Assembly (NCBI GenBank): GCA_021733985.1
Contig: JAIPJT010000024.1
Span: 1-40,740 of the forward strand
Source of the DNA: Victivallales bacterium
GTDB taxonomy: Bacteria; Verrucomicrobiota; Lentisphaeria; Victivallales; GWF2-38-69
Direction of reading: 5' to 3'
Length of the DNA: 40,740 bases
In this document: in pieces, positions 3,648-36,420 of the stretch
How the letters are laid out: each line of letters begins with the position of its first letter
Numbering within the stretch: position 1 is the first letter of the stretch
The notes under the pieces: generated by a model
Seen by the model: the letters and a program-made list of their open reading frames with translations, nothing else
Told to the model about the DNA's origin: nothing
The model's database searches: none
Made by a program: the position numbers and the translations under genes

Positions 3648-6236
3648 ATGAAAAAAAAAATACATAAAATTAAGTTTTTTTCAGCCCGGGATAAGGGAAT
3701 AGCTACTGTACTTACCCTGGGAATTCTTGCACTTTTAGCAGCTCTTGCAGTAAGCTTCGTCTCCGAATCAATCCTGCTCGATAAAATTTCAAAAAACAGC
3801 CTGGACCTCGAGCGATCCAGGCTTATGGCACAGTCCATGGTTCAGCGCACTATAGCAGTAGCGAATAAATACAACGAAACCACATCATCAAGCCTGATAG
3901 ATTTTCACTCTACCCTGATCAGCGGGGATACAGCTGTTACAGATGAACTCAACGAGGCTATCACAACAAACTTTAATAATATTCGGTACTACCAGTGGAA
4001 CGCCACAGATCCCGATTCTCCGTGCTGGCAGTATATACGAACAATAAGAAACTCAAACAATGACAGTCAGATTATCGGACGTGTAGCCTACGTTACAGTT
4101 AATAATATCGGAAAACTTGATCCGTCCGTAATCGTAGATTCGGGTGCATCAGGTAATGCAGTAACAGAAGACACCAGCCTGTATACCTCTTACGGAAACA
4201 TTGGCCGCCCCGGTAAATATGTTAATGAAATATTTATGAGAAATCTCGATTCAGATTCGAGCTATTTCACAAATGCACAGTTAAAAACAATGAGTGCAGA
4301 CAATGCGACTCCCCCAGGTGAACTTCCATCAAATTCCCGATGGTTCGACCTGTCAGAAATGATCGGAGCAGTAAATTCCAATGCCACGGAAGATACAAGA
4401 ACACGTTTCAATAACTGGTTCACAACAGATGCTCCAAAGGACCCGGAAGCATTCTGGATAGATGTTGATAATGATGATACAATTGACTCACAGTATGAAC
4501 TGTTCCACAGATTTAATTTAAGAAGGAACGATTGGGGTTTGTTGTCCGTCTCTGATATTACAGGTGCAGATGCAGTACTTCATACATCCTCCTACACAAA
4601 TGCAGCAGTAAAATGTATCCCATGGCTGAAAAACTGGAAAAGTTCCGGCGGGATGGGCTCTGCTACCAACTGCAAAAACCAGATCATAGCAAATCTGATA
4701 GATTACTGTGATACAGATACAGAACCGACAACTGATTATCCAGGAACGTCTCCTCCAACATATTTAGGCCATGAAAATGTTCCCTATATTAATGAAATTA
4801 AACTGGAAATAGAAGGATATATTGAAGAGGATGCAAGTTTCCGGTACAGGGCTCATATTGATATAGTATCAGCATCACTTGAACTTGTTAATATGTACGG
4901 TGATACTATAGCTGCGGATGCTGAAATTGATTTTGGATTTGAATCAGATGTATATGTTGATGACGGATTGGGTGATTATTATACTTATAATCGTACTTCA
5001 GATGCAATAGACCCGATAGAAATAAACTTCGGTTCTGTATCATCAGAATCCTACACTGTAGAAACAGGCACAGTAAGCTATGTTTCAAACTGGACAGACG
5101 CTTATGACTCTTCAAGGGACAGGTCTTTTACAGATTTTATAATAACAGAAATTTTAGTTAAACTAAAAGATTCTAATGGGAATATTATTAACTGTTCAAG
5201 TATTGTTGAGGGACAAACAGGTTCAGAGGATTTTTCATTTGACGGCTCTACAGGAACTGTTTACTTTCATGGACAGGTTGCCGACCCGAGACAGAACCTT
5301 CTGGAAGATGACTGGGCCGGCTACGATTTTACTACGGTAGACCCGGTAGATACATTAGACACAAATAATGCCTCTTACAATCCTGACCAGGGGGCCGGCT
5401 ATGACACCGAATCGGAAAATGCCGATCCCTGGGATATTTCCACCGCCTATATCAGAAATGCTCCGATGGAATCCCCCTGGGAACTCGGTTTTATCCACCG
5501 GGGCAAAAAATGGCAGACAATTAACCTGAAAGCCTATGATGATGCTGATACTCAGGGAGCAAAATCAGGAGCGGGAGGAGACGCCTACTCAAACGGCGAC
5601 GCGAACATCCTCGACCAGGTTAAAATGACTTCCGCAACTGAAACTTACGGTAAAGTTAATATTAATTCACCCTATCCGGAAACCGATGCGGACTCTGTCC
5701 CGCAATGCGAAATATATAAAGCACTGTTTACAGATGTCTATTTTGGAACAAATCCTGAAGATCCCGGAGAAAAAACAGGAGCCACACAAATAACTGCAGC
5801 ACATGCGGAAATTCTGGCGGAAGATATTGTCACCAAGTCTAATTCAGATTCAGGAATTTTTAAAACAAGAGGGCAGCTTTTGAGAGATACAAACGGTATA
5901 CCGGATTTATATTCTGTTACAGGAATGAATTCAGATGCAAAGAAAGAAGAACTTATCGGTAAAGTGATAAACCTTACGACAGGCGGCACAAGCAATAATA
6001 TCACGCTTATCGTTGCAGCCCAGACTATTAAGGATGTCGGCGGTAATTCCGACGCTGTTGGTGATTCCGACCCCGGAGTGTCAGTTACATTCAACGGAAC
6101 AACCAAAACCTGTAGATACAACGAATATATTCCCGGATACGATCCGATACTTGCCGAACAGAAAGTACTTGTTATTCTTACCAGAGACCCGGTCACTTTC
6201 GAATGGAAAATAAAAAAACTGCGATATATCAATTAG
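3648..6236 (+). CDS. Large GspK/PilX-like pseudopilin-type protein
   Basis: The protein has 862 residues. The N-terminus is a short basic leader, then DKG|IATVLTLGILALLAALA, a single hydrophobic helix of the type IV pilin/pseudopilin class. Gly17 fits a prepilin peptidase cut. The residue at +5 of the mature form is not Glu, which is also the case in GspK, the tip pseudopilin of type II secretion. Near residue 665 it has GKVNINSPYP, and near 740 FKTRGQLLRDTNGIPDL. These resemble the GspK features of a KVNINTA-like segment followed by helix-hairpin-like sequence. GspK is usually about 300-350 residues, so this protein is far larger; the middle is Asp/Ser/Thr/Tyr-rich and of unknown fold. It probably sits at the tip of a fibre in the periplasm. 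The other pseudopilin genes are about 26-32 kb away. No good ribosome site precedes the ATG, so the start is moderately uncertain. Confidence 0.6.
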   Translation: MKKKIHKIKFFSARDKGIATVLTLGILALLAALAVSFVSESILLDKISKNSLDLERSRLMAQSMVQRTIAVANKYNETTSSSLIDFHSTLISGDTAVTDELNEAITTNFNNIRYYQWNATDPDSPCWQYIRTIRNSNNDSQIIGRVAYVTVNNIGKLDPSVIVDSGASGNAVTEDTSLYTSYGNIGRPGKYVNEIFMRNLDSDSSYFTNAQLKTMSADNATPPGELPSNSRWFDLSEMIGAVNSNATEDTRTRFNNWFTTDAPKDPEAFWIDVDNDDTIDSQYELFHRFNLRRNDWGLLSVSDITGADAVLHTSSYTNAAVKCIPWLKNWKSSGGMGSATNCKNQIIANLIDYCDTDTEPTTDYPGTSPPTYLGHENVPYINEIKLEIEGYIEEDASFRYRAHIDIVSASLELVNMYGDTIAADAEIDFGFESDVYVDDGLGDYYTYNRTSDAIDPIEINFGSVSSESYTVETGTVSYVSNWTDAYDSSRDRSFTDFIITEILVKLKDSNGNIINCSSIVEGQTGSEDFSFDGSTGTVYFHGQVADPRQNLLEDDWAGYDFTTVDPVDTLDTNNASYNPDQGAGYDTESENADPWDISTAYIRNAPMESPWELGFIHRGKKWQTINLKAYDDADTQGAKSGAGGDAYSNGDANILDQVKMTSATETYGKVNINSPYPETDADSVPQCEIYKALFTDVYFGTNPEDPGEKTGATQITAAHAEILAEDIVTKSNSDSGIFKTRGQLLRDTNGIPDLYSVTGMNSDAKKEELIGKVINLTTGGTSNNITLIVAAQTIKDVGGNSDAVGDSDPGVSVTFNGTTKTCRYNEYIPGYDPILAEQKVLVILTRDPVTFEWKIKKLRYIN

Positions 6237-15373: not shown

Positions 15374-17629
15374 CTACATATCGAGATATCTTTCCGGGAC
15401 TTCCATTTCAGAGTCAAGCTGTATTAAAAATACCGGTGTTTCTTTATACAGCATATCACCGATATCTTCGCTGAAAGCAGTTTTATAATTCAGGTCAATT
15501 CTTCTGAAGCTTTTGAATTCCATCATATTGCGATAAAGTTCAAGCAGAGCGGTATTTACGGGAACAGTTATAATGACTTTTCTGTTTCTGAAATCTGCAC
15601 TCCTTTTTTCTGTAAATTCTCTATTAAATTTAATTACACCGAGTTGATGTAACTGGTTGAATTTTTCTTTGTCCGGAGTAGACATAACAAAAGCTGTTTT
15701 CAGCAGAAAGCCACCTTTAGACCCCCTCATACCGTCAATTTCTCTGTCATCACCGGAAAAATCGCTTACATCCTCAAGAACTCCATCTGCATCTAAACTG
15801 GAAATATTTTCTTCAATTTCAGTCGAACTCAAGGTTGCCCTGGATTTTGCAACAGCATTTCTGGTCATGTTTTTTCTTAATTCTTTGATTTCTTCGTCTG
15901 CAGTAAGGCTCATGGGTTTCATTTCATGAAAAGAAGGTTCAGCAATTTCTTCGACAACCGCCCTTTCCTTTCTTCTTTTTTCTACGGGCTGTTCGACTGA
16001 AGGCAAGCCCTTGCTTTTTCCTTTTGTCTCGGCAGAAGCTTTGCTGCCGGTACCTTCAGGAACTTCCATGGAGACCTGTGAAGACCCGAACTTAACAGGT
16101 TTGACTTTCGAAATATCCTCTTTGTCACTTGTATAAGTTTTCGCTTTTTCAGAATGTACGCTCTTTTTTACATTTACAGGAGAAGAATTGGGTTTTACTA
16201 TTTCGGCTTCCCGCCATATTTCTGAAACCTCACTGCTTGACACCGGCTGCTGTTCCGGAACAGTTATTTTTTCTACAGGCTTTTCAGTTGTTGCAACAGA
16301 CTTTACCTTAGGAAGAGATGATATACCTTCGCGGACAGCTAAAGCCACGCTTTGTCTGGCAAGAGTATTTATGTTTATAGTCATATCCCGGTTTTTCTTT
16401 TTCATAGCTTCACTTAACTGACCTCCCAAAAACCACAGTCCGGAAAGCAGAGCGAGCAGAAGATGAATAATTAATGCAATTATTAAACTTTTTACAATTA
16501 AAGACATATCAGTTCTGCTTGCGAGAAGCCTTAAAAGAGCCCAAATAACTGCTGCAATTATCAGTATAAGCAGCACCATTGCAAGCAGCTTTAAAAGCAG
16601 AGAATAATCAAATTTATTCACAACTTCAGTGGAGTCGGAGGAAAATACAAGAAAATCTGTTTTTTCCCAGGAACGTCTATTTGTAGAGAAAAACAGTTCA
16701 TATCCATCTTTTGAAATATCCGGAGAAATTTCATCATCAACTGAATTTACAGTTTCCCCAAGGTTCTCAGGATCGGTAAAACCTTCTCTCAAAAGATAGC
16801 TCCGGTATATATCGTACCCCCCATAGCCGCCTCTGCGGTTTGAACTGAAGTATATTATATTACCCCTGAGTGTTGCGGAAATATGTCCTTCATCATATTC
16901 TGTATTTATACTGTCCAGCCTTTTCAGCCTGCTTAATTTTAGATATAAACTCGCATCTTCATTTTCAAAAATCTCCTCAACAAATGAACTGAATATATCA
17001 AAATTTTCCTTTCCGGTATCATCCCGCGGATTATCAGGTGCAGTTTCCGGCCTGTTTGAATTAAAATAAAAGACCTGTTTGTCGACAGTCAGGTAAGGAT
17101 TTTTCTCGTCATAATGAGTATTTATTGAACTGCTTACAGGATATGGGGCCTGCCATGTCTGCCCTCTTCTGCAGGATACGTATATATCAAATCCGCCTCT
17201 TCCTTCAGGACGGTCCGATGCAAAAAACAGATATTTCCCGTCGGAGCTGAGTGAAGGAGTAATTTCATTATATTCTGTATTTACATTTAAAAGTCTTCTT
17301 GGTTTTGTCCATTTTTTATCAATACATCTGGAAATAAATAAATCTCGGTTATCACTGCTGAAATATCTTGAAATAATAATAGTTTTCCCATCTTCTGAAA
17401 CAGTGGACCCCACATTCCCCTGTACTTCATTCAGCTTCCCTTTCAGAGCTTTACTCTCTTCCCAGAGCACAGCCCTTGAATGAGCAGTGAAAGCAAGTTT
17501 TTTTAACCCGAGGCCGTCCATATAATACTCTAAAAAACTGTAACTGGGAATAAAAAGCAAAATCAGAAGTATAATTCCTGAAATCCCTAATACTTGTATC
17601 GTCAATTTTTTAGAAAATATTTTTTTCAT
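15374..17629 (-). CDS. Beta-propeller (PD40/TolB-like) membrane protein with TolA/TonB-like tail
   Basis: The protein has 751 residues and ends a four-gene operon. A membrane segment at about 11-28 is followed by PD40/TolB-like repeats at about 65-330. Examples are TPSLSSDGKYLFFASDRPEG, HISATLRGNIIYFSSNRRGG and SPDISKDGYELFFSTNRRS, each typical of WD40-like propeller blades. Two further membrane segments lie at about 344-368 and 377-402. The remaining 350 residues are rich in Lys, Glu, Pro and Ser, and end in a compact region at about 665-751. With these segments both the propeller and the tail would lie in the periplasm. ExbB and ExbD genes directly upstream suggest that this is the protein they energise, combining roles of TolB and TolA. 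That function is an inference. PD40 domains alone also occur in PorE-like and OmpA-linked proteins. Confidence 0.7.
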   Translation of the reverse strand: MKKIFSKKLTIQVLGISGIILLILLFIPSYSFLEYYMDGLGLKKLAFTAHSRAVLWEESKALKGKLNEVQGNVGSTVSEDGKTIIISRYFSSDNRDLFISRCIDKKWTKPRRLLNVNTEYNEITPSLSSDGKYLFFASDRPEGRGGFDIYVSCRRGQTWQAPYPVSSSINTHYDEKNPYLTVDKQVFYFNSNRPETAPDNPRDDTGKENFDIFSSFVEEIFENEDASLYLKLSRLKRLDSINTEYDEGHISATLRGNIIYFSSNRRGGYGGYDIYRSYLLREGFTDPENLGETVNSVDDEISPDISKDGYELFFSTNRRSWEKTDFLVFSSDSTEVVNKFDYSLLLKLLAMVLLILIIAAVIWALLRLLASRTDMSLIVKSLIIALIIHLLLALLSGLWFLGGQLSEAMKKKNRDMTININTLARQSVALAVREGISSLPKVKSVATTEKPVEKITVPEQQPVSSSEVSEIWREAEIVKPNSSPVNVKKSVHSEKAKTYTSDKEDISKVKPVKFGSSQVSMEVPEGTGSKASAETKGKSKGLPSVEQPVEKRRKERAVVEEIAEPSFHEMKPMSLTADEEIKELRKNMTRNAVAKSRATLSSTEIEENISSLDADGVLEDVSDFSGDDREIDGMRGSKGGFLLKTAFVMSTPDKEKFNQLHQLGVIKFNREFTEKRSADFRNRKVIITVPVNTALLELYRNMMEFKSFRRIDLNYKTAFSEDIGDMLYKETPVFLIQLDSEMEVPERYLDM

Positions 17630-17647
17630 TAATCTATATTGCCTGGT

Positions 17648-18058
17648 TTAAATTGAGGAAGTTACATAACCGATATTAGCCTTTTTAACTCCACTTCTTT
17701 TGCATACAGCTACTGCCGCCGCCACATTTCCGTGAAAAGCATTCTTATCCCCCCTTACAAGTACTTTCTGGGCAGGATTCCTTTTGACAGCATTTACCAG
17801 CCTCTGCTGCAGCTGTGCCAGGTTCAACCTTTTTGTACCGAGATAATAACTTCCATCTTGCCTGACATTGATCACAAGTGCACGGCTTACTGAACTTAAA
17901 GTTGTATCAGTCTTGGGAAGGTTTACGCTTATATCGTGTTCAATCTCTTTAAATGACATGGTAACAAGGAAAAATATGATAAGAATAAACATAACATCAA
18001 CGAGTGAGGATATATTAATTATATCTCCCTCACTTTCCGGAGCCTGTTTAATTTTCAT
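17648..18058 (-). CDS. exbD: ExbD/TolR-family proton-channel subunit
   Basis: The protein has 136 residues with a short cytoplasmic N-terminus, one membrane helix at about 19-35 and a periplasmic domain. The essential aspartate is Asp21 in ISSLVDVMFILIIFFLVTMS, the proton-carrying residue of ExbD/TolR. The periplasmic part (LVINVRQDGSYYLGTKRLNL, KVLVRGDKNAFHG) has the usual ExbD pattern. It starts behind AGAGG, 12 bases after exbB, and ends 18 bases before the propeller gene. TolR cannot be separated from ExbD by sequence alone; the propeller neighbour makes a Tol-like role attractive. Confidence 0.9.
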   Translation of the reverse strand: MKIKQAPESEGDIINISSLVDVMFILIIFFLVTMSFKEIEHDISVNLPKTDTTLSSVSRALVINVRQDGSYYLGTKRLNLAQLQQRLVNAVKRNPAQKVLVRGDKNAFHGNVAAAVAVCKRSGVKKANIGYVTSSI

Positions 18059-18070
18059 TCTGAATGACCT

Positions 18071-18823
18071 CTATTTCTGTTCATTAGCAATGTAAATATC
18101 AATAAAATCGTCACAGATAACTTCTATTTCATTCATCTGCTTATCTATTTTATAAGTTAAAAAATAATAAATAAGCAAAACAGGAATAGCTATAGTCAGC
18201 CCTGTTGCAGTAGTCACCATCGCCTCATAAATACCTTCGGCGAGCCTTTCTGCCTTAGCGATTCCGGCTGTAGTGTTTGCAACAGTCTGGAAAGCTGTTA
18301 TCATACCGTAAACAGTCCCCAGTAATCCGAGAAGAGGTGAAATTGCAGCTATAATCTTCAACCCCTGAAGGCTTCCTTTCAAATTTCTTATTTCACGCCC
18401 TGCGACATCCTCAAGACATTCCTCTATCTCCGAAATTTTTCTCTGCGATTTACACCTTGCTATACCGGATTTGATTATACTCGAAATTGGTGAAGGCTTA
18501 GTATTACAGAATTCAGTCGTTTTATTAAAATCTTCCAAAGTGCACTTGTTTAAGCTGTTTTTTATATCCGCTTCAAAACCTATAGGTATGATTTTATGCT
18601 TCCTTAAACTTATAAATCTTTCAATCATTATCGTTAAAGCCACAATTGAACAGATTAGAAGAGGAATCATCACCGGTCCCCCTTTTATCAAAAGTGCCAG
18701 TAAAGTTTCTGATGATTTACCTCTTATCTGCTCTACATTTTGAGCCATCCCTGCCGGCAGCATAGAAATTAGAAATAAAATACTTAAAAAGGTTTTTTTA
18801 AAAAATTTTACATTTTGATTCAT
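18071..18823 (-). CDS. exbB: ExbB/TolQ/MotA-family proton-channel subunit
   Basis: The protein has 250 residues with an N-terminal signal-peptide-like segment ending GMA|QN near residue 27, as in the ExbB branch that carries a periplasmic N-terminus. Three membrane helices follow at about 48-70, 155-180 and 200-225. The central signature is ISPLLGLLGTVYGMITAFQT, and the last helix reads ATGLTIAIPVLLIYYFLTYK. It assembles with ExbD to use the proton gradient and drive a periplasm-spanning partner. It starts behind AAAGGA, 14 bases after the TPR gene. MotA-like roles are ruled less likely by ExbD next door. Confidence 0.92.
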   Translation of the reverse strand: MNQNVKFFKKTFLSILFLISMLPAGMAQNVEQIRGKSSETLLALLIKGGPVMIPLLICSIVALTIMIERFISLRKHKIIPIGFEADIKNSLNKCTLEDFNKTTEFCNTKPSPISSIIKSGIARCKSQRKISEIEECLEDVAGREIRNLKGSLQGLKIIAAISPLLGLLGTVYGMITAFQTVANTTAGIAKAERLAEGIYEAMVTTATGLTIAIPVLLIYYFLTYKIDKQMNEIEVICDDFIDIYIANEQK

Positions 18824-18837
18824 AAAATTTCCTTTTT

Positions 18838-21800
18838 TTATTGATTAACTATATATGAATTACTTTTGTCCATCAGTTCGGTAGCAGTTATAGCTTCATC
18901 CGATCCGGGATATTTTTTAACAATTTTCTTCAGAATTTCCAGAGCTTCTTTGTACTCTCCGGTCTTCTGTAGTACCTGAGCCATTTCAAGCAGAGCTTTT
19001 GACACCCATTCCGGTTCATTGTAATTCAATTCAACCTTGACAAACGCCTTTATAGCCTGACTATATTTTTCCAGTGCAAAATAGCATTCTCCAATTTGAA
19101 ACTGACTTCTTGCTGCAATTTCAGTATCGTCTTTTATAGATATGGCTTTGAGATAATTTTTAATTGCTCGCGTATAATCTTTTGAGTTTTCCTGCGCCCA
19201 TCCAAGCCACATATACGCTCTGCTTAAATATTTACTGCTGCTGTAATTGCTGATAACCCTTCTAAAGGTTTTAACAGCATCACTCCACCTGTCTGTCAGA
19301 CACTGGGTTTCCCCAAGTCTAAGAAGGACCTGTTCCGCAAGAGAATTATCTTTTCCTAAAGCTTCTGCGGCCTTATTAAAGAAAGAAAAGGCTTTTTCAT
19401 AATATTTTTTCTTTAAATAAATCTCACCTACCTGGTAAGCTGAAGTTACAGTAAACTCGGAATTCGGATATTTATTAATCAGGTTTTTAAAAACTCTTAA
19501 AGCTGCATCTTCCTGTTCGCGACCTATCAAAGCCCATGCCAGCCGGTAAAGCACCTGTTTTTCAAGTTCGGGTTTTAAGTCGGAAGCCTTGAGTTTATCA
19601 AGTTTATTAATTGCCTTATCGTACTCTTTTCTGTTATAATTGTCTTCCGCAAGTTCAAAGAGTACTTTATTATACAGTTTGTGGCCTGGAAATTTTTTAA
19701 GAAACTCTTTGTAATATTTTTCTGCAAGTTTTTCATTACCGAGTTTTTTAGCTCTCCATGCAGATTCATATATTGCAGTCGGAACAAATTTTGATTTGGG
19801 ATATTTCTTTATAAACGGTTCAAATATGTCTTCGATGTCATCGTATTTTTTATTCATGCTTCTACAGTAATAGAGATAATAAAGTGGTTCCACCTTCTTC
19901 TTATTATCCTTTGAATAAACAGTAAGATACTTGTTTAAGTTTTCCTCGGCTTTTTCGTACTTACCAGATCTCATTTGATGGACAGCGAGTTGAAGGAGAG
20001 AGTTGCCGGCCAGCTTGCTGTTAGGATATTTTTCTGAAATCTTCTTGAAATATTCAGCAGCTTCAGCTTCATCGGACTCCTTAAAGGCAATCCAGCCCAG
20101 ATAATATTCGGCCTGCTGAACAAATTCGGATTCTGGATATTGTGCTATTATCCTATCGAAATATTTATCAGCTTTTTTAAATTTATTTTTTTTGAAATAT
20201 ACTTTACCCGCCTCGTTTAAGGCATACGGCATAAACCTGCTTTCAGGATATGTCTTTATGAGTTTGTTTAAAATAACTTCGGCATTACCGTAATCATTTA
20301 CCTTAATATATGAAAGAGCCAGTTTCATCAGCGCACTGTCCGTATTGTTGTATTCTGTATTTACTGTTATATACTCTTTCAGATAATCAATAGCTTTACT
20401 CCAGTTTCCAAGCTCATAAGCACTTATACCGGCTATATAGTAAAGCTGGTTATAAAACTCGCCTTTAATGTTATTTCTGATAAGAGTATCTGTCTCATTA
20501 TAAGCATGCTTCCATTTTTTCTGTTCAGCATAACACTGGGCAAGTCTGTAAATTGCTTCATAAGTATATTTTTCTTTACCGGTGACGGGAATGAACTTTT
20601 TAAATTCTTTAACTGCTTTGTCCAGCTTATCCTGAAAAAACAGATTCTCAGCTTTAAGAAAAGCAATATCGACAGCTTCTTTGCTTTGCGGATATTTTTT
20701 TAAATACAGCGAACATGCCCTGTTGCTTTTTTTGTATAAGCCCGCCCTGTTATAGCAGAAAGCCTGAAACTTCAAAGAATCATTATCTATCTCATTTTCA
20801 GGATACTGCCTGTTAATCTTATCGAGAAGTGATCCGGCTTCTGTATAATCCTTAGCAAGCATTTTGGCATTGGCGAGTTCGAACATCAGTTTTGGTCGCA
20901 GCGGATTATCTTTATATTTCTTTGTTCCTGCAGTAAGAACATCAATGGCTTTTTCATAATCTTCTTTTTCCTCAAATACTTTCCCGAGCCACAAGTGGGC
21001 TTCCGCACCAACTTCTTTATTATCCATAAGTGTTCCGAAAACAGACTGGGCTTTAGTGTAGTCCTTTATCTTGTAAAAGCATTTCCCAAGGTATATTCCT
21101 GCTTCCGAGTTGTATGGGGAGTCGGGAAATATAGATCTTAAATCTGAAAAATCCCTGATTGCGGAATTATAATTTTTCTGTAAATAGTTTATATAAGCAA
21201 GCCTGAAGAGTGAATTATCGGTAAATTTACCCTTAACTCTTTTTACAATAATTTCGTGATTTTTTGCAGAATCATTCAGTTTACCCAGATGCTGCTGACA
21301 TTCGGCAAGCAGAAATAATGCATGAGCATAAAACGGTATTTTCACACCTTTCCTGACAATCGGTTTCAAATTTTTTTCAGCTTCAGCATATTTTTTCAAC
21401 TGATAACAGGCCAGCCCGGATAAAAAGTTAACCCTGTCTTCGTATTTACTGTTCGGCACATTTTTCTTAAGCTCCTTTGCGTAGTTAATCACATCCTCCC
21501 ATTTTTTCTGCTGAAATAAAGCTTCTATCAGGCCGGCATAACTTCTTTCAAGAGGTTCGAGGCTCTGAATGTCTCCCATTGGCACTTGAGGGGATTCTTC
21601 ACTTTTCCGGGAAACTCCCGGCAGATCCAGATATAATTTTTCTTTCCCGCTGTTAATACTCCAGCGGAATGCGGCTTCTGCCTGTGAAGGATTATTTTCT
21701 ATTAAATAGCACTGCCCCAGCAGATTATGAATTTGATCCTGATACGGTACATTCTGTTTGTCTGCAAGTTCACTGAAAATAGGTTTCGCTTCAGAATATT

Positions 21801-22044
21801 TCTTTAATTCGTAATACGAAAGCCCCAGCCCCAGTTTGGCATTGTTTACTTTCGGATGCTCCGGATACCTAATTAAAAAATTCCTGAACTCCTCGGCAGC
21901 AAGTTTGTAAAGTTTCTTGTTATATAAAGCATTGGCAGTGTAATATTTTTCTGTAGATATATCATCCTCTGAAGCATAAATACATACTGGAATAAAAGTA
22001 CTTAATACGATTAGAAAAAACACAAATATCTTTTTAGAATTCAT
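18838..22044 (-). CDS. Large exported TPR-repeat protein
   Basis: The protein has 1068 residues from the ATG at 22042-22044, which has AGGAG six bases upstream; an in-frame extension to 22086 lacks such a site. A signal peptide (MNSKKIFVFFLIVLSTFIPV, then CIYA|SED) is followed almost to the end by TPR units of about 34-40 residues. Many carry the Y-P-x-S-x-x motif, such as KYPNSKLAGNSLLQLA and NYSSSKYLSRAYMWLGWAQE, which is the BamD/CpoB (YbgF) style of repeat. I count over twenty units by eye. It opens the operon with exbB, exbD and the propeller gene, much as the TPR protein CpoB accompanies Tol. It is likely a periplasmic or outer-membrane-associated scaffold. No enzymatic domain is seen. 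Confidence 0.85.
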   Translation of the reverse strand: MNSKKIFVFFLIVLSTFIPVCIYASEDDISTEKYYTANALYNKKLYKLAAEEFRNFLIRYPEHPKVNNAKLGLGLSYYELKKYSEAKPIFSELADKQNVPYQDQIHNLLGQCYLIENNPSQAEAAFRWSINSGKEKLYLDLPGVSRKSEESPQVPMGDIQSLEPLERSYAGLIEALFQQKKWEDVINYAKELKKNVPNSKYEDRVNFLSGLACYQLKKYAEAEKNLKPIVRKGVKIPFYAHALFLLAECQQHLGKLNDSAKNHEIIVKRVKGKFTDNSLFRLAYINYLQKNYNSAIRDFSDLRSIFPDSPYNSEAGIYLGKCFYKIKDYTKAQSVFGTLMDNKEVGAEAHLWLGKVFEEKEDYEKAIDVLTAGTKKYKDNPLRPKLMFELANAKMLAKDYTEAGSLLDKINRQYPENEIDNDSLKFQAFCYNRAGLYKKSNRACSLYLKKYPQSKEAVDIAFLKAENLFFQDKLDKAVKEFKKFIPVTGKEKYTYEAIYRLAQCYAEQKKWKHAYNETDTLIRNNIKGEFYNQLYYIAGISAYELGNWSKAIDYLKEYITVNTEYNNTDSALMKLALSYIKVNDYGNAEVILNKLIKTYPESRFMPYALNEAGKVYFKKNKFKKADKYFDRIIAQYPESEFVQQAEYYLGWIAFKESDEAEAAEYFKKISEKYPNSKLAGNSLLQLAVHQMRSGKYEKAEENLNKYLTVYSKDNKKKVEPLYYLYYCRSMNKKYDDIEDIFEPFIKKYPKSKFVPTAIYESAWRAKKLGNEKLAEKYYKEFLKKFPGHKLYNKVLFELAEDNYNRKEYDKAINKLDKLKASDLKPELEKQVLYRLAWALIGREQEDAALRVFKNLINKYPNSEFTVTSAYQVGEIYLKKKYYEKAFSFFNKAAEALGKDNSLAEQVLLRLGETQCLTDRWSDAVKTFRRVISNYSSSKYLSRAYMWLGWAQENSKDYTRAIKNYLKAISIKDDTEIAARSQFQIGECYFALEKYSQAIKAFVKVELNYNEPEWVSKALLEMAQVLQKTGEYKEALEILKKIVKKYPGSDEAITATELMDKSNSYIVNQ

Positions 22045-22435: not shown

Positions 22436-23968
22436 ATGACAAAAAAAAATCTATCAGGAAGGTTAATAACGTTATTAACCTCAATTGCAGTTTGTATCTG
22501 CTTTACAAGCTGTAAAACAACACAACAGGCAAAACCGAAAGAATCGAAGTTTGCATACGCCTGGCTTGGATTTCCACAACCGGCACCAACACCGGAACAA
22601 TCCAAAATACTTGTAGAAAAGTGGACCCCGAAAAAATCAAAACCTGGTGAAACAGTCCCGGTCAAATTAAAAATACAGAATAATGCTGATTACAAAATAA
22701 GCCATTCTTCAATTATGGAAAAACTTCCTCCTGAATTTAAAATAGTAAAAATAATTCCCAGACCGGAAAAAGAGTCTAATAATAGAATAAAATGGAATCT
22801 TGTGAATATTGCTCCCGGAACCAGTAAAACATTTATAGTTAAAGGTAAAATAAATAAAGTAGGGTCAGTAAGATATACAGGAAAAACCGTTCTTAATTTT
22901 GAATCCAGCCCAATGGGCAGCACAGAAAACTCGGTAGTTAAAGTTATAGCACCGGACCTTGAACTCAACACTGTTGCACCGAATACTTCAGTGATTAACA
23001 GTATAATACCGGTTGAACTAACATTTAAGAACAGAGGGACAGCTCCGGTTGAAAAACTTAAACTTTTCCAAACCCTGCCAAGAGGTATTTTAACTTATTC
23101 AGGCAAGAGTAATATTCAGCTGGATATCGGAACACTGTCACCACAACAGGAGGTAACAAAAAATATCGATATGAAGGGAACTTTAACAGGGGATTACAAT
23201 ATTAAATTAACTGCAGTAGCCGATAACAATATTGAAGACACCTCCTCAATTAATTTAAAAATAACCGAACCACAACTGAAAATTAAACTGATAGCTCCTA
23301 ATAAGAGGTTTGTCGGCGATGTTATACCGTATACTGTTAAGCTGAAAAATACCGGAAACGCCGATGCGGCAAATGCAGTAGTTCAACTGGAATTACCCGA
23401 CGGTATTTCTCTTGCTTCAATAGATAACAACGGAACGAACAAAGACAATATCGTAAAATGGAATATCGGAACACTGCATCCGAACGAAACAAAAACTTTA
23501 TCAGCTAAAGTAGTGGCAAACAGGATTATGACTGCAAGAACTTCCGTGACAGCAGATGCTGATGCTTCTGAAAAAATAGAAACGGCCAGGACTACAGATG
23601 TGGCCGGAATAGCCGCTCTGCTCTGTTCACTTGATGATATTCATGATCCTGTACCGGTAGGTGAAATAGAGGAATATATATTAACTGTAAAAAACCAGGG
23701 TTCACTCCCTGCTACAAAAATCAAGGTTGAATGCTTTATTGAAGATAGCATGCAGTATATTGAATCAACCGGAGCAACCAAAGCAAACTTAAAAAATAAT
23801 CTTCTGACTTTTGATCCGCTGCCGGAACTGGGACCACAGGCAGAAGCGAAATGGAAAATAAAAATTAAGGCGCTCAAACCAGGCTCAACCCGTTTCAAAG
23901 CTGAAGTTACCAGCGAACAACTTACTAAAGAAGTTACTAAGACAGAACCTACATACTTCTATGAATAA
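22436..23968 (+). CDS. DUF11-repeat surface protein, putative lipoprotein (OmcB-like)
   Basis: The protein has 510 residues. The N-terminus has a basic start, a hydrophobic stretch and CICFTSCKTT, so Cys26 is a probable lipidation site, although Phe at -3 is not ideal. The rest is four consecutive Ig-like beta domains of the DUF11/TIGR01451 type. Each has a pattern such as PVKLKIQNNADYKISHSSIM or YTVKLKNTGNADAANAVVQL, followed by L-P-x-G/F and W-x-(I/L)-G-x-(L/I)-x-P. Chlamydial OmcB and many surface proteins carry such domains. It is cysteine-poor, unlike OmcB. It is a full-length paralogue of the next gene, which follows after 38 bases. Both are likely envelope or surface structural proteins, and the function is otherwise unknown. 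Confidence 0.75.
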   Translation: MTKKNLSGRLITLLTSIAVCICFTSCKTTQQAKPKESKFAYAWLGFPQPAPTPEQSKILVEKWTPKKSKPGETVPVKLKIQNNADYKISHSSIMEKLPPEFKIVKIIPRPEKESNNRIKWNLVNIAPGTSKTFIVKGKINKVGSVRYTGKTVLNFESSPMGSTENSVVKVIAPDLELNTVAPNTSVINSIIPVELTFKNRGTAPVEKLKLFQTLPRGILTYSGKSNIQLDIGTLSPQQEVTKNIDMKGTLTGDYNIKLTAVADNNIEDTSSINLKITEPQLKIKLIAPNKRFVGDVIPYTVKLKNTGNADAANAVVQLELPDGISLASIDNNGTNKDNIVKWNIGTLHPNETKTLSAKVVANRIMTARTSVTADADASEKIETARTTDVAGIAALLCSLDDIHDPVPVGEIEEYILTVKNQGSLPATKIKVECFIEDSMQYIESTGATKANLKNNLLTFDPLPELGPQAEAKWKIKIKALKPGSTRFKAEVTSEQLTKEVTKTEPTYFYE

Positions 23969-24006
23969 AATATATATTTGACCCTGTATAGAAAGGAAAA
24001 TAATTT

Positions 24007-25509
24007 ATGAAAAGTTATAAACAGAAATTATTAAATGCATTTCTCATTTTAATCGGTTCTATGACTGTACTAAATGCCGCAAATGCTTATGAAACGGTAA
24101 GCTCCTATGAAGTTTTTCCGGAAACATCTTCTTCACTCAAGGCGGCTAAGCTTACAGTGGATAGAAAAATCCCCAAAAATATAACTCCCGGTAAAAAATA
24201 CAAATATAATCTTAAAGTAACCAATCAGTCACTGTACAATATTGACCATGTTATAATTGAGGAAACTATTCCTGAAAATTTTACGTTTATAGGTGCAGTT
24301 CCCAGACCTACAACGGTAAGAAGAAATTCTATTGTATGGAAAGTTGGAATGATGGCCCCGAGACAAAAAGAAATTTTCTCGATTGAAGGAAAAGCCGTCA
24401 GAGCCGGTAAAATAAAACATGAAGGTAAAGCTATTGTCGCTTATGACCTCGGCAGCATGAATACAGTAATGGATGTTGTTTCAGCAAGATTGAACCTTAC
24501 AGTTGAGAACCCGAGAACTGCAATCGTCACAGAAATAGTTCCTGCGAAACTGACTGTTTCAAATATCGGGACTAGCGAAGTTGTAGCCGCCGAAATTAAA
24601 CATAAGTTTTCAAAAGGTTTAACAACCCCTGACGGCTCTACAACTTACTCTAAATACTTAGGAGATATCAAACCTAGTGACACCTTGACTGTAAATATTC
24701 CGATCAAAGCAAAAGCCAGAGGAGAATATAAAGAAAAGATGGTAGTCAACAGCAAAGAGGGTGTAAAAGCAAATGCTATTCTTAAATTAACAGTCGGCGA
24801 ACCCAAATTGGTAGTTGAGGCCGATGCTCCCGGCCGCAGATTTGTTGGAAACAACATCATGCTGAGTCTTAAACTTAGAAATGCCGGTGACGGTGAAGCT
24901 AAAAATACAAAAGTGGTTATGGATATTCCGTCCAATGTTAAATTTCTTTCTGCCAATGAAGGCGGTACACTGAAGCAGTATAATAAATTAGTATGGGATA
25001 TAGGAACAATGCAGCCGGATTCTGAAAAAAAGGTTACTGCTATATTGGTTGGAAAAAGAATTTCAACTCTTTCTACTAAGGCGGTAACAACTGCAAAAGC
25101 CGTGAATCCTACAACCTCCCAATTTAAAACCAATATCGAAGGAATTCCTGCTTTGTTAGTTTCATTAGGTGACATCAATGACCCCGTTCCGGTAGGAGGC
25201 ACTGAAACCTATGTTGTTCAGGTTGACAACCAGGGTTCTCTTGCAGCTAAAGATATTGTAATAAAATGTGAACTTAATAACTCAATGAAACTTGTAGGTA
25301 TTCAGGGCCCGACTAAAAAGGCCACGCTGAAAAATAATATTTTAACATTAAAACCGCTTGGCCGGCTTAAACCGAAAGACTCAGCAGTTTGGAAGATTAC
25401 AGTCAAGGCTCTTAAAGCCGGAGATATCCGCTTTAAAGTGTTTACTGAAAGCAGAATGTTGAAACGTCCTGTTTTCGAAGATGAATCTACACATTTCTAT
25501 GTTGATTAA
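24007..25509 (+). CDS. DUF11-repeat secreted protein, paralogue of the upstream gene
   Basis: The protein has 500 residues and starts behind AAAGGA. A classical signal peptide (MKSYKQKLLNAFLILIGSMT, then VLNAANA|YE) replaces the lipoprotein signal of its neighbour. The same four DUF11-type domains follow in order. Aligned pieces include IPALLVSLGDINDPVPVG here against IAALLCSLDDIHDPVPVG upstream, RFVGNNIMLSLKLRNAGDGE against RFVGDVIPYTVKLKNTGNAD, and the C-terminal THFYVD against TYFYE. The pair arose by tandem duplication. One member is lipid-anchored and the other free, which suggests they act together in the envelope. A strong terminator lies just after the stop. Confidence 0.75.
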   Translation: MKSYKQKLLNAFLILIGSMTVLNAANAYETVSSYEVFPETSSSLKAAKLTVDRKIPKNITPGKKYKYNLKVTNQSLYNIDHVIIEETIPENFTFIGAVPRPTTVRRNSIVWKVGMMAPRQKEIFSIEGKAVRAGKIKHEGKAIVAYDLGSMNTVMDVVSARLNLTVENPRTAIVTEIVPAKLTVSNIGTSEVVAAEIKHKFSKGLTTPDGSTTYSKYLGDIKPSDTLTVNIPIKAKARGEYKEKMVVNSKEGVKANAILKLTVGEPKLVVEADAPGRRFVGNNIMLSLKLRNAGDGEAKNTKVVMDIPSNVKFLSANEGGTLKQYNKLVWDIGTMQPDSEKKVTAILVGKRISTLSTKAVTTAKAVNPTTSQFKTNIEGIPALLVSLGDINDPVPVGGTETYVVQVDNQGSLAAKDIVIKCELNNSMKLVGIQGPTKKATLKNNILTLKPLGRLKPKDSAVWKITVKALKAGDIRFKVFTESRMLKRPVFEDESTHFYVD

Positions 25510-25564: not shown

Positions 25565-26455
25565 ATGAACTTCCTCTTAAAAAAATACAATATATTAATA
25601 TTTTTTGCATTTCTTTTAACAGTACTGCAGGTAAATGCCGCAAAAGTAATTCTTCGCGACGGTACTGTTATAAAAAACATAAAGGGTGTAAGAGAACTCG
25701 GAAACTATTTTCTTTTAAAAGATGATCTGAAAAACTATACTTTCAGAAAATCGAAAATCAGTAAAATAATATCATCTGACGGTAAAACGATATTTGAACA
25801 TAAAATTTTAACAGCCGTAAAAAAAACCGAGGATGACGGCTCTCTGTATTATTCTTTCTTTATTAACGGAAAATTTGCCGGACAAGGCGGCTGGGACAGT
25901 TATAACCAGTTTGAAGTTACAGAAGGGGATCTTCCTGACGGTATTTACAAAGAATATTTTAATACAGGGAAACTGAAAAGAACTTTCCCCATAAAAGATA
26001 ATACCCTGGACGGTGTATCAAAGGTATATTATGCTTCAGGAATGGTAGCACGGGAAGGCCGGTTTAAAAACGGTTACGAAGTGGGGGTAAGTAAACTATA
26101 TTATAAAAGCGGAGAATTAAAAGGCAAATCTATTTACAAAAAAGGTGTCAGAGACGGAAAAACTTTACTGTACTATAAATCCGGCAAACTCAAATCTGAA
26201 ATGACTTTTGTAGATGGTGAGCTCAACGGTATACAGAAAATGTATTTTAAAAACGGCAGGATATCCAATATAGTCAGCTATGAGGATGGGAAAAAGAACG
26301 GTAAGTTCAAGCAGTATTATGAAAACGGAAAGCTGAAAGTATCAGGTAACTGTGAATCCGGAAAGCTTTCTGGAATTATTACTACATATTACAGATCAGG
26401 CAGAGTAAAGAAGCGTAAACGTTTTATTGACGGAAGGATATTGAAGGGAAACTAA
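25565..26455 (+). CDS. Secreted MORN-repeat-variant protein
   Basis: The protein has 296 residues with a signal peptide (about 1-25, ending VNA|AK). A small N-terminal domain reads KVILRDGTVIKNIKGVRELG. From about residue 128 onward there are seven or so units of roughly 22 residues, like DGKTLLYYKSGKLKSEMTFV and NGKFKQYYENGKLKVSG. These are MORN-variant (PF07661) repeats as in the YwqK group. Such repeats form extended beta sheets; their roles are poorly known. It is not necessarily an antitoxin despite that family label, since it is exported and alone. No ribosome binding site is visible because a terminator stem ends just upstream. The stop codon overlaps that of ispG, which converges on it. 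Confidence 0.75.
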   Translation: MNFLLKKYNILIFFAFLLTVLQVNAAKVILRDGTVIKNIKGVRELGNYFLLKDDLKNYTFRKSKISKIISSDGKTIFEHKILTAVKKTEDDGSLYYSFFINGKFAGQGGWDSYNQFEVTEGDLPDGIYKEYFNTGKLKRTFPIKDNTLDGVSKVYYASGMVAREGRFKNGYEVGVSKLYYKSGELKGKSIYKKGVRDGKTLLYYKSGKLKSEMTFVDGELNGIQKMYFKNGRISNIVSYEDGKKNGKFKQYYENGKLKVSGNCESGKLSGIITTYYRSGRVKKRKRFIDGRILKGN

Positions 26456-32742: not shown

Positions 32743-33591
32743 TTATCCTCTTTCGCCGAGATATACTGTTTTAGTAAATGTTCTTTCATGTTTCTTCCTG
32801 AACGAACTTGCGGTAACAGGTTCGCAATCAGGATAATCCCCTTCAGCAAACAAATCCAGCCATTTATTCCACGACTCCTTATCCATTGTCTTAATAGTTA
32901 CGTCCACCGAAAACGGAAATACAGTAGCACTGCAGGCATCACCCTCCTTACTGATCGTCTTATCCGGTTCAATAATATTTCCCTTTTTATCATAACATGT
33001 AAAAGAAAACATTGTTACATAGGGCATAACTCTATAATAATATTCACTGGAGTTTGAATTAGCAGTAAAAGTAGATACCGGTTCAGACGAATCCGTAGTA
33101 TAGCCAGCTTTTTGGTCTGAATATATATTCCATCTTTTATTTTTTTTTGTAGAAGTATAATCTCCGGTCACACTCCTTCTGATCCAGCCGTTCTTTGAAT
33201 CCTTTGGATTTGTGGCATAATAAAGCTGATACTTTACTTCGCATAAGCTGGATTTACAGTTTTTATTCGGTTTTAATCCCGTTGAAGCTATAAATGCTAA
33301 AAGTTCATTCCTGTATACACCCCATGAAGCAGGCTTGCCGTCTGGCTTCCAGTGCCAAAACGGTACTTTGCCGCTATCATAATAAGCTGTCTGAAGATCA
33401 CGGGTAATCAGGTCTAATGTTATCCTTGTATTCTCAAAAGTGACACTTCTGCCCATTAAAGAATTTGTTGCAGAAAAAGCTGTCTGATATACGCTGATAA
33501 GTGTAGCAGACAGCAGACTGAAGATCGAAAGCGATACAATTATTTCTACTAATGTAAAAAACTTTCCGGACATTTTACAGAAAATTAACAT
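32743..33591 (-). CDS. GspJ/PilW-like pseudopilin
   Basis: The protein has 282 residues; GGGAG seven bases upstream supports the start. A short leader MLIFCKMSGKF is followed by FTLVEIIVSLSIFSLLSATL, a pilin-type helix with Glu at +5. The residue before the cut is Phe instead of Gly. The large C-terminal region has NCKSSLCEVKYQLYY and ends KHERTFTKTVYLGERG. Both are closely mirrored in the next upstream gene (34265-35137), so the two are paralogues. Length and helix fit the GspJ/PilW minor pseudopilins that sit near the tip of type II secretion or type IV pilus fibres. It is the last gene of the pseudopilin series. Confidence 0.75.
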   Translation of the reverse strand: MLIFCKMSGKFFTLVEIIVSLSIFSLLSATLISVYQTAFSATNSLMGRSVTFENTRITLDLITRDLQTAYYDSGKVPFWHWKPDGKPASWGVYRNELLAFIASTGLKPNKNCKSSLCEVKYQLYYATNPKDSKNGWIRRSVTGDYTSTKKNKRWNIYSDQKAGYTTDSSEPVSTFTANSNSSEYYYRVMPYVTMFSFTCYDKKGNIIEPDKTISKEGDACSATVFPFSVDVTIKTMDKESWNKWLDLFAEGDYPDCEPVTASSFRKKHERTFTKTVYLGERG

Positions 33592-33823
33592 TCATTTCTC
33601 CCTTCAACCGCTTAAAGTTTTAAGAATTACTGCGCAGCTGCCCCAAAACATATCCCGCTTTAAAACAGGTCCCTATAAATATTTTTTATTCAAAACAAAA
33701 GAATAAAAGTTATTTTTGTAAAATTAATTTAAAATGTTACTAAATATGTAACTTTTTGTAACTACTTCGTAACTTTTGGGGACTTAGATAAAGCCTGTCC
33801 CAAAAGTTGCACTTTTGTCCGGC

Positions 33824-33879
33824 TCAGTTGTCAGTTGTCAGTTGTTGGTTGTCGGTAGTCGGTAGTCGGTAGTCGGTGA
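33824..33879. repeat. Heptanucleotide tandem array (8 units)
   Basis: Eight consecutive 7-bp units occur: TCAGTTG three times, TTGGTTG, TCGGTAG three times and TCGGTGA. The gradual change of unit across the array suggests slipped-strand growth. It lies between two GspJ-like genes and next to mobile-looking repeats. Confidence 0.9.
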
Positions 33880-33880
33880 C

Positions 33881-33930
33881 ACATTGAATTAAGGCAAAAT
33901 TATTGATTTTGCTGCAATGACGGAACCATC
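33881..33930 (+). repeat. End fragment of the 248-bp palindromic element
   Basis: The segment runs ACATTGAATTAAGGC, ATTATTGATTTTGCTGCA, CGGAACCATC, and matches 35953-36002 with few substitutions. Only this one end is present; the rest of the element is missing or replaced. The boundary abuts the heptamer array. Confidence 0.7.
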
Positions 33931-34020
33931 TGTCGGTGATTAAAGAAGGATTTCTGTCCGGGGATTGAGCTGATTTCCGGTAATTAGCGTTGATCTTCAC
34001 ACGACGAAGTTTAATCTTTT

Positions 34021-34180
34021 CTGAAACAAAACGGTAGGGCGCGATCTCCGACCGTGTGAGCCATAGCCCCGCTACTCCGGGGCGACGGCTTAGCGCGCTG
34101 CAATACAGCATTATTGTTAAATGTATAATAAAATTATACGATTTAATGCAATATTTTACTGTATAGTATTTTTGTTTCAG
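34021..34180 (+). repeat. Intergenic inverted-repeat element, copy C
   Basis: It has perfect 10-bp ends, CTGAAACAAA (34021-34030) and TTTGTTTCAG (34171-34180). Inside lie GGTAGGGCGCGATCTCCG, the block GTGAGCCATAGCCCCG, CGGCTTAGCGCGCTG, then an AT-rich half with CAGCATTATTGTTAAATGTA. The AT-rich half is nearly identical to that of copy F in the opposite orientation. Copy F lacks the block of about 40 bases in the middle. Confidence 0.85.
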
Positions 34181-34264
34181 GGGAGCAATTGCATGAAAAG
34201 AGTTTATCTCTGCAGAGATCGTATAAGGCTGCAGAGCATACAGCCTTTTTCAGGCTTTACCTAT

Positions 34265-35137
34265 TTAATCTCTTTTTCCGATATAAATAGTTCGTCTGAA
34301 GGTGTGCTCTTTTTTGTTACGGAAATTTTCTGCGGTAGAAGTCTCATTGGTTATAACACTATTATTATTTTTATTTCCGTTTGCCCCCAGAGAGATCCAT
34401 TTATTCCAGTCGTTTCTGCTCAGGAGTTTAAGAGTAATTTCGAGTGAAGAGGGTATAACACTGCTGTCACTTTCATCGCCGCTTATAATCGAACCGCCTG
34501 AATTATAACCTTTACACGAGAACTCTGTTACGTAGGGTATAAGTTTGTAATAGCAGTTTCTCGAACCGGTACTGCCGGTGAAAACTGCGTTTTCATAGCT
34601 CCCGTCTTTTTTATATATCTCAAGATTATTTGCCGCATAATCATAAAAATTCCAGGAATCATTATCTTCAGATGTACTGACTTTATTCCCCGTAATACTC
34701 ATAAGCAGCCAGCCTGCAGTATCCTGAACAGTATCATCGTCGGTGTTATAATAAAGCTGATACTGTACTTCGCAGGCATTTGAAGTACAATAATCATTAG
34801 GCGGTTCATTCAGGTAAGCAACAAAACAGATCATATCGTTGGAGTATTTGTTTTCATTATCATAATCACTTCCTTTATGATAAAACGGTACAACATTGTT
34901 TTTATAATAAATACCCTGAATCTGTCTGTTTAACATTCCCAGGGCTACTCTCGCATTTTCAAAGATAGTGGCCTTGCCGGAAGTTGAACTCCATCCTTTC
35001 TGAGCAGAACTGAAAAATTGCATAATAATAGTCAAAAGAACAGCAAGCACAAGCATCGCGACTGTTACTTCAACAATGGTAAAGTGATATACTGTGTACA
35101 GTATGCCCGGTCCTGCTTTTCCATATTTTTCCTGCAT
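34265..35137 (-). CDS. GspJ/PilW-like pseudopilin (paralogue)
   Basis: The protein has 290 residues. The leader is longer than usual (MQEKYGKAGPGILYTVYH) and precedes FTIVEVTVAMLVLAVLLTII, the pilin helix with Glu at +5. His precedes the expected cut site instead of Gly. The globular part contains DYCTSNACEVQYQLYY and ends KKEHTFRRTIYIGKRD, and both correspond to the downstream paralogue at 32743-33591. The shared C-x4-C-E-V pair may form a disulfide. It is a minor pseudopilin candidate in the series. No strong ribosome site precedes the ATG. Confidence 0.75.
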   Translation of the reverse strand: MQEKYGKAGPGILYTVYHFTIVEVTVAMLVLAVLLTIIMQFFSSAQKGWSSTSGKATIFENARVALGMLNRQIQGIYYKNNVVPFYHKGSDYDNENKYSNDMICFVAYLNEPPNDYCTSNACEVQYQLYYNTDDDTVQDTAGWLLMSITGNKVSTSEDNDSWNFYDYAANNLEIYKKDGSYENAVFTGSTGSRNCYYKLIPYVTEFSCKGYNSGGSIISGDESDSSVIPSSLEITLKLLSRNDWNKWISLGANGNKNNNSVITNETSTAENFRNKKEHTFRRTIYIGKRD

Positions 35138-35227
35138 ATAACTTTACAACTTTACTTTTTCAAAATCAATTAAATAAAATTCAGTGAGCTGAATACACCT
35201 TAATATTGATTTATCATAATTATATAC

Positions 35228-35243
35228 CAATGTCATTGAATTA
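35228..35243. repeat. Solo end of the 248-bp palindromic element
   Basis: CAATGTCATTGAATTA matches the reverse complement of the right end of the element at 36179-36195 and the left end at 35948-35964. No second end was recognised within this gap. It may be a relic or a solo arm. Confidence 0.45.
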
Positions 35244-35326
35244 TATACAACAAGTACATTGCTTTATTTAAACTGAATTATAAGGGAAAGTTATTAAAAA
35301 AGAAACATTACACGGGATTTTATTCG

Positions 35327-35923
35327 CTAATTACTGTTCCTAAGTTCAAAGTAGTAATAATTTTTTTTTCTTTCTGAGTATGGTTTTTCAACAGGCCAGC
35401 TGATTTCAAGATTAATACCTACTGCCTCATCAGAAGACAGGCTGACTTCCTCACCTGTCACTTGAGCCGGGGGAATATCTGTCTGCCACAGCAAAGCTTC
35501 ACCTGTAAAATCAACAACATGGTCGGTTAATACCTTAATGCCGTAAACACCGTCCCCTGCTGTAACAGTTTCTCCGGAAGTATTTATATCATCTGCATCG
35601 TAATAAATATCACCTTCTGAATTAGCTGTATCACCGAATGAGAAGTCGGAACCTAAACGACCGGTATCCGGAATATCAACCTTTTCCCGGGGTAAAAGAG
35701 AAACTATACCAGCCCAATCCCCTGTAGAAGCATTTGCTGCTCTTGAAATATAAGCAAAAAGACTGTCAGCAGCATCAGCACAGTAATTTTTTCCGATAGC
35801 TCCCCGGCTTCTGCTTAAACCTACAGGAAACAGTGACATTATAGCAGTCACACCTATAGCAAGAATACCAATGGCTATCGCTATTTCTACAAGACTGAAA
35901 TATTTTTTTCTGTTTAAAATCAC
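35327..35923 (-). CDS. GspI/PilV-like pseudopilin
   Basis: The protein has 198 residues. The leader MILNRKKY precedes FSLVEIAIAIGILAIGVTAI, a pilin helix with Glu at +5. The I-L-A-I-G turn and the following SLFPVGLSRS are typical of PilV/GspI. Tyr stands at -1 in place of Gly. The start codon is GTG and lacks a clear ribosome site. The globular part ends with WPVEKPYSERKKNYYYFEL. It lies between the GspH-like and GspJ-like genes, which matches the usual H-I-J order of type II secretion operons. Confidence 0.75.
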   Translation of the reverse strand: MILNRKKYFSLVEIAIAIGILAIGVTAIMSLFPVGLSRSRGAIGKNYCADAADSLFAYISRAANASTGDWAGIVSLLPREKVDIPDTGRLGSDFSFGDTANSEGDIYYDADDINTSGETVTAGDGVYGIKVLTDHVVDFTGEALLWQTDIPPAQVTGEEVSLSSDEAVGINLEISWPVEKPYSERKKNYYYFELRNSN

Positions 35924-35947
35924 TGTTTTTTTCTGTTATTTATTGCC

Positions 35948-36195
35948 CAATGCCGTTGAATTAAAGCAGAATTATTGATATTGCTGCATTCACGGAACCA
36001 TCATCAGCCTTCGCTGGAAGCTACGCCAAGACACAGGAGGACTGGTTCCTTCCATGTATTCCGCAGTTTGTGGAGGAAATCAATCCTTCTGTGTCGGTCA
36101 TACAGGAACTTCTGTACGACGGCTGACGTGTCTAGGCGAAGCTACATGCGAAGCCAGATGATTCCGAAAACAGAACCCTTAATTCAATGACATTG
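35948..36195. repeat. 248-bp palindromic element with 17-bp inverted ends
   Basis: The ends are CAATGCCGTTGAATTAA (35948-35964) and TTAATTCAATGACATTG (36179-36195), complementary at 15 of 17 positions. Inside, GGAACCATCATC (35994-36005) plus CTTCGC, AGC and CGCCAAGACAC face GTGTCTAGGCGAAGC and CGAAGCCAGATGATTCC. The whole element can therefore fold into a long imperfect hairpin. Partial copies occur at 33881-33930 and 35228-35243. It has no transposase and would be non-autonomous if mobile. Confidence 0.75.
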
Positions 36196-36226
36196 ATTCG
36201 TTCATTCGTTCATTTGTTGATTTGTT

Positions 36227-36280
36227 AGTCTTAGTCTTAATCTTGATCTTGATCTTAATCTTGATCTTGATCTTGATCCT
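36227..36280. repeat. Hexanucleotide tandem array (9 units)
   Basis: There are nine 6-bp units of the AATCTT/GATCTT type, beginning AGTCTT and ending GATCCT. Upstream, imperfect units such as TTCGTTCA and TTTGTTGA at 36196-36225 look like older, decayed repeats. Confidence 0.9.
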
Positions 36281-36389: not shown

Positions 36390-36420
36390 CATAATCCATA
36401 ATCACCTCTCACCGTCTCCC

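Follow-up and report, generated by a model that had tools for sequence, protein, structure and literature searches.

What does a TolB-like propeller do when it is built into the same polypeptide as a membrane hairpin and a long tail, and encoded behind the subunits of a proton-driven motor? The question is raised by a locus in a 40,740-nucleotide stretch of the genome of a Victivallales bacterium (assembly GCA_021733985.1, contig JAIPJT010000024.1, positions 1 to 40,740 of the forward strand), the whole of which is referred to as the window. Four genes on its reverse strand, extending from position 22044 to 15374, encode a tetratricopeptide repeat (TPR) protein, an ExbB, an ExbD, and a fusion of a propeller, a membrane hairpin, and a tail, in this order. 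The product of this operon is probably a force transducer that spans the envelope, runs on protons, and is of a kind that occurs across the Planctomycetes–Verrucomicrobia–Chlamydiae (PVC) bacteria. The anatomy of the locus, as read from sequence, comprises its gene order, the domain layout of the fusion, a histidine motif, the proton-path residues of the motor, and a patchy distribution.

The third transmembrane helix (TM3) of the fusion, on the tail side of the hairpin, contains His389. Among 77 homologues chosen by profile coverage, with the motif disregarded, 75 have a residue aligned at this position, and it is a histidine in all 75. The position four residues before the histidine is occupied by serine in 65 and by alanine in 9 of the aligned homologues, and lysine or arginine is found nine residues before it in 65. 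The pattern [KR]x4[SA]x3H is present in none of 491 membrane segments of unrelated proteins from the same loci. A Ser/His motif is a motor-binding feature shared by TolA and TonB (PMC12204202). In a comparison of the family profile with the whole of Escherichia coli TolA, the best local alignment placed TM3 on the TolA helix and His389 on His22; the match is statistically weak (E = 0.005, probability 7%), and the 63 rows of the profile had been picked with the histidine pattern. Direct comparison with TonB gave no meaningful match. The conservation of TM3 supports its assignment, at the level of sequence, as a TolA/TonB-type motor-binding helix.

The four genes are separated by 14, 12, and 18 bases, in gene order. 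The TPR protein matches many Pfam TPR families (TPR_6, E = 1e-71), and its best NCBIfam match is tol_pal_ybgF (E = 8e-108). Thr170 and Thr205 of ExbB align with conserved threonines of E. coli TolQ, and Asp21 of ExbD, which is invariant in the alignment, corresponds to the transmembrane aspartate of TolR. These threonines and the aspartate have an established role in the proton path of this family of motors, and judged by the alignments the path residues of the window ExbB and ExbD are intact. The window ExbB has a signal-like hydrophobic N-terminal extension that is absent from E. coli TolQ and from the other ExbB of the genome. A first-pass annotation of the window had proposed the gene order, which coordinates, Pfam, and NCBIfam confirm, and the combination of a propeller, a two-helix membrane hairpin, and a long tail in one protein, which agrees with an AlphaFold2 model containing membrane helices at residues 2–31, 342–371, and 377–412.

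The model of the fusion protein was calculated with an alignment of 63 sequences; these had been selected with a pattern requiring the histidine, so that its invariance in this alignment is circular, and the unbiased count is that from the separate set of 77 homologues. The propeller is predicted confidently, and the predicted local distance difference test (pLDDT) scores of the tail are mostly below 50. The propeller has five sequence repeats; a blade number of five was deduced by counting these repeats and the strands, and was not read from coordinates. In a fold comparison of the model with the PDB, each of the 12 best matches is a TolB, TolB–Pal complexes included. The nearest NCBIfam families of the propeller are CHU_0125 (E = 1e-35) and PorE (E = 6e-28), with TolB far weaker (E = 0.0016), and a profile search of PDB sequences gave no match. 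Averaged over the family, the N-terminus carries a net charge of +3.2 and the hairpin loop one of +2.75, and the stretches after TM1, before TM2, and after TM3 lie between −0.5 and −0.8. By these charges the N-terminus and the hairpin loop are predicted to be inside; the charges and the AlphaFold2 model agree in placing the propeller and the tail in the periplasm, as the first-pass annotation had assumed. The stretch after TM3 of the window protein is charged +2, which makes the topology signal there weaker than in the family. The tail had been described as rich in lysine, glutamate, and proline; residues 440–640 contain 12% lysine and 13% glutamate, but only 6% proline together with 14% serine, and the tail is thus lysine-, glutamate-, and serine-rich. 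The positions of the features are listed in Table 1.

Table 1 Features of the operon and of the fusion protein, with positions in the window.
Feature	Position	Strand	Details
TPR protein, first gene	22044-18838	-	1068 residues; N-terminal signal sequence
ExbB/TolQ-type motor subunit	18823-18071	-	250 residues; Pfam MotA_ExbB, E = 3e-29
ExbD/TolR-type motor subunit	18058-17648	-	136 residues; one transmembrane helix; Pfam ExbD, E = 3e-27
Propeller/hairpin/tail fusion protein	17629-15374	-	751 residues; Pfam PD40, E = 2e-17
TM1, N-terminal anchor, predicted N-in	17537-17596	-	residues ~12-31; AlphaFold2 helix 2-31; N-terminal net charge +4
PD40 beta-propeller (predicted)	16610-17476	-	residues ~52-340; five repeats; pLDDT about 95
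TM2, hairpin helix 1	16517-16606	-	residues 342-371; loop after TM2 positively charged
TM3, TolA/TonB-like putative motor-binding helix	16415-16501	-	residues 377-405
His389 codon	16463-16465	-	register of TolA His22
Conserved stretch directly after TM3	16310-16384	-	residues 416-440; from alignment; spacing of TonB/TolA motor box
Periplasmic tail (predicted)	15650-16309	-	residues ~441-660; Lys/Glu/Ser-rich, mostly disordered
Conserved C-terminal end	15374-15649	-	residues ~661-751; last residues DSEMEVPERY; from alignment; pLDDT below 50

Of 60 genomes of the order, seven encode a full-length homologue of the fusion, a count that includes the window genome; they belong to three families. The fusion gene lies behind ExbB and ExbD in all seven, with an adjacent TPR gene in three. 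A scan of genome contigs retained 80 loci, which belong to Planctomycetota, Verrucomicrobiota, Kiritimatiellota, and Lentisphaerota, together with a few more distant propellers of Bacteroidota that have no hairpin. The gene order of the window recurs: same-strand ExbB and ExbD genes precede the fusion in 61 of the 76 non-duplicate hairpin-bearing loci, a TPR gene in 63, and all three in 56, and there is never more than one ExbD upstream of the fusion. The operon layout is more than chance, because the full-length fusion and the ExbB–ExbD–fusion order recur both in the order and across PVC bacteria. A match reaching through the hairpin was present in 4 of 195 genomes of the Verrucomicrobiota sample, and 22 of 196 genomes from the phylum of a Phycisphaerales member had a match, as we counted from the table of matches. 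The branching of the family tree largely agrees with the phyla, and seven Lentisphaerota-type sequences form one clade (support 100/100) on the Verrucomicrobiota side. This distribution fits old inheritance within PVC bacteria accompanied by loss, and some transfer may have occurred as well.

The window genome is 96% complete and divided into 71 contigs, and therefore absences of genes from it are likely rather than certain. It contains two ExbB and two ExbD genes above the cut-off. The second pair belongs to a TPR–ExbB–ExbD–TonB-like operon beside recA; all 41 genomes tested have the ExbB type of this operon, and the relatives whose gene neighbourhoods were inspected show the TPR–ExbB–TonB-like order, in most cases next to recA. 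An orphan TolA/TonB-like gene (C45:2045–2770) encodes a protein of 241 residues. Because of the second motor operon and the orphan gene, the window set constitutes an additional system of patchy occurrence that does not stand in for a core motor; the possibility that the fusion replaced the only motor of the order was rejected on the same count of 41 genomes. The recA-side TonB-like protein of the window genome (locus L004, 8158–8913, on contig C59) has a tyrosine (SAVYV) at the position of the motor-binding histidine, and its relatives, including two of the same family (L165 and L166 were compared), have a histidine there. The orphan protein has a histidine in its membrane helix and a stretch, PISVTLVPP, that resembles the TonB motor box. 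The first-pass annotation had raised the question of whether genomes with this set lack classical tolA, tolB, and pal; neither TolB_N nor a second PD40 gene was found in the window genome. TolB_N is a weak marker of TolB across the phylum, matching 8 of 195 genomes, several near the cut-off, and its absence proves little. In addition to the orphan TolA-like gene, the genome has a Pal-like lipoprotein encoded by a lone gene on another contig (C7:9328–9927), which is the only OmpA-domain gene of the genome; the window itself contains none.

In the proposed machine, an ExbB pentamer and an ExbD dimer would form an inner-membrane motor. The fusion would dock onto it by TM3, with His389 doing the job of TolA His22 or TonB His20. 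By analogy with TolA and TonB, the motor would work the periplasmic tail that follows TM3, and the C-terminal end would reach a partner at the peptidoglycan or the outer membrane. The propeller would be held at the inner membrane beside the motor by TM1 and TM2. The first-pass annotation had suggested that the propeller is moved directly; however, it is less likely to be the moving part because it lies between two membrane helices, and in TolA and TonB it is the free tail that moves. Unlike TolB, which is a free shuttle, the propeller would most likely be a stationary platform, for docking or as a clutch, that serves the TPR protein or the cargo of the tail. The machine would probably act in energised upkeep of the outer membrane or in the assembly of envelope or surface proteins, as an accessory to the separate motor operon present throughout the order.

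Several points weigh against the force transducer. The window protein has an alanine at the serine position of the motif, and the docking of TM3 on ExbB is an inference. The region corresponding to the motor box is modelled as a helix (residues 420–437, pLDDT about 75–79), in contrast to the strand of the published motor box. For the C-terminal end there is no Pfam match, recognisable fold, or known partner. In seven Verrucomicrobiales-type loci, the TPR gene directly precedes the fusion, and no ExbB or ExbD was detected nearby. The proposed outer-membrane role draws on analogy and on DUF11/MORN neighbours in only three genomes. Several fusions of the seven loci (L044, L048, L070, L077, L080, L085, and L098) carry an N-terminal extension.

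The closest published relatives of the fusion are force transducers of PVC bacteria that carry a von Willebrand factor A (vWA) domain (Williams-Jones et al. 2025, PMC12204202). They share with it a histidine-bearing motor-binding helix, a disordered linker, TPR and TolQ-like neighbours, and the PVC distribution, and their function is likewise not known. By contrast, the vWA transducers are encoded with paired TolR-like genes, whereas the window set has a single ExbD, and they have a vWA tip in contrast to the N-terminal propeller and the extra membrane helix before the motor-binding helix of the fusion. Neither the window protein nor any of eight relatives gave a vWA match.

Where the gene is complete, relatives are mostly 1000–1900 residues long, compared with 751 for the window protein. 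Many of them end in a well-conserved domain (42 sequences, with a mean column identity of 49%), modelled as an alpha/alpha toroid with a pLDDT of 94, the fold matches of which are squalene-hopene cyclases, GH76 mannanases, and sugar epimerases. Other relatives contain a carboxypeptidase-regulatory-like domain in place of the toroid, or both, and the window clade has a short conserved end only. In five loci (L064, L074, L078, L081, and L084), a tandem paralogue of about 800 residues is located between ExbD and the fusion; it is composed of a propeller and a toroid, lacks the hairpin, and has one C-terminal membrane helix. A constant motor-binding part combined with tips that can be exchanged is what would be expected of a transducer family. 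It is possible, with a prospect slightly short of even, that the fusions constitute an undescribed PVC-wide machine, a transducer with its own inner-membrane propeller beside the motor and an interchangeable periplasmic tip, which would combine recognition and force in one chain. The short end of the window clade, and elsewhere the toroid, the carboxypeptidase-regulatory domain, or both, could tentatively be regarded as such tips. Full-text literature searches, of incomplete coverage and without the supplement of PMC12204202, provided no description of a propeller–transducer fusion.

A specific form of the force-transducer explanation, which is rather unlikely, is an energised system for exporting, assembling, or anchoring the neighbouring DUF11 (OmcB-like) and MORN surface proteins, similar to type IX secretion in Bacteroidota. 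A DUF11 pair and a MORN_2 protein occur beside the operon in the window genome (G000) and in G002 and G017, representing three genera and two families. In the window they adjoin the operon at 22436–25509 and 25565–26455, and one of the DUF11 proteins has a weak match to Chlamydia OMP6. The arrangement is collinear in G002 and different in the others; the proteins are possible partners or clients. This reading also draws on PorE and CHU_0125, the sequence families nearest to the propeller, which are outer-membrane lipoproteins of Bacteroidota. PorE combines a five-bladed propeller with TPR and carboxypeptidase-regulatory domains (PMC7463736), and the last of these is also found in several fusion relatives. 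However, PorE has an OmpA-like peptidoglycan-binding end, whereas the fusion has no OmpA domain, and its N-terminus forms a membrane helix and has no lipobox. The fusion scores far under the cut-offs of the PorE/CHU_0125 families (123 versus 620 and 97 versus 600). Against the reading, the four f7 genomes do not have the DUF11 and MORN neighbours, and no translocon gene was identified.

It is unlikely that the set is a true Tol–Pal variant, in which the tethered propeller would be the TolB of the lineage and load the orphan Pal onto peptidoglycan at division sites. The Tol–Pal system of E. coli (TolQ, TolR, TolA, TolB, Pal, and CpoB) resembles the window set in its motor with the same proton-path residues, in a transducer helix with a histidine in the same register and the S-x3-H motif (with alanine in the window protein), and in the TPR protein of the operon. 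The PD40 propeller has TolB as its best PDB fold match, with TolB–Pal complexes at the top of the search, and it is encoded by the only PD40 gene of a genome with one lone OmpA-domain lipoprotein. An OmpA-domain protein is present in 45 of 47 fusion-bearing genomes; nevertheless, OmpA domains are common, which makes the co-occurrence weak evidence, and pal is outside the locus. TolB consists of an N-terminal Rossmann-like domain and six blades and is free in the periplasm, whereas the window propeller has five repeats and no N-domain, is positioned between predicted helices TM1 and TM2, and forms one chain with the transducer, with three membrane helices in total. The propeller_TolB score of the fusion is 17, compared with a cut-off of 343, and PorE and CHU_0125 are nearer in sequence. 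Neither Pfam nor the TonB comparison detected a TolA/TonB C-terminal domain in the fusion tail, which is mostly disordered in the AlphaFold2 model. Most relatives keep the other motor operon without the fusion, and therefore the fusion cannot be the general TolB of the order. The likeness to Tol noted in the first-pass annotation holds for the conserved order, the TolA-type helix, the fold matches, and the sole PD40 gene; membership in the Tol system is not supported. A classical Tol operon was rejected for the lack of TolB_N, of the TolA C-terminal domain, and of pal in the locus.

That the fusion takes no force from the motor, TM1–TM3 merely anchoring a propeller scaffold that shares the operon by chance, is improbable. 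The seven loci with a TPR gene and a fusion, and no ExbB or ExbD nearby, favour such a scaffold, but they retain the TM3 histidine. TM3 is hard to explain as a plain anchor because of the invariant histidine in the TolA register and the basic residue that precedes it by nine positions. A role as an ordinary TonB system in nutrient uptake, which would account for the ExbB/ExbD motor and the TonB-like helix, is very improbable and was rejected, since the fusion has no TonB C-terminal domain and no plug domain of a TonB-dependent receptor was found in the genome (E up to 0.1).

Elsewhere in the window, consecutive small proteins whose N-termini resemble those of prepilins (32743–38374) and a large protein with a hydrophobic N-terminus (3648–6236) possibly belong to a type II secretion or pilus-like cluster.

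The known kinds of transducer for ExbB/ExbD-type motors are few and consist of TonB, TolA, and the vWA proteins, which were put forward in 2025. The fusion adds a candidate kind from two large and poorly studied phyla, in which a TolB-like propeller and a putative force-transmitting helix are part of one protein. For the study of such motors it offers His389 as a specific residue and the operon as a specific set of genes, and it bears on how TolA and TolB became separate proteins.

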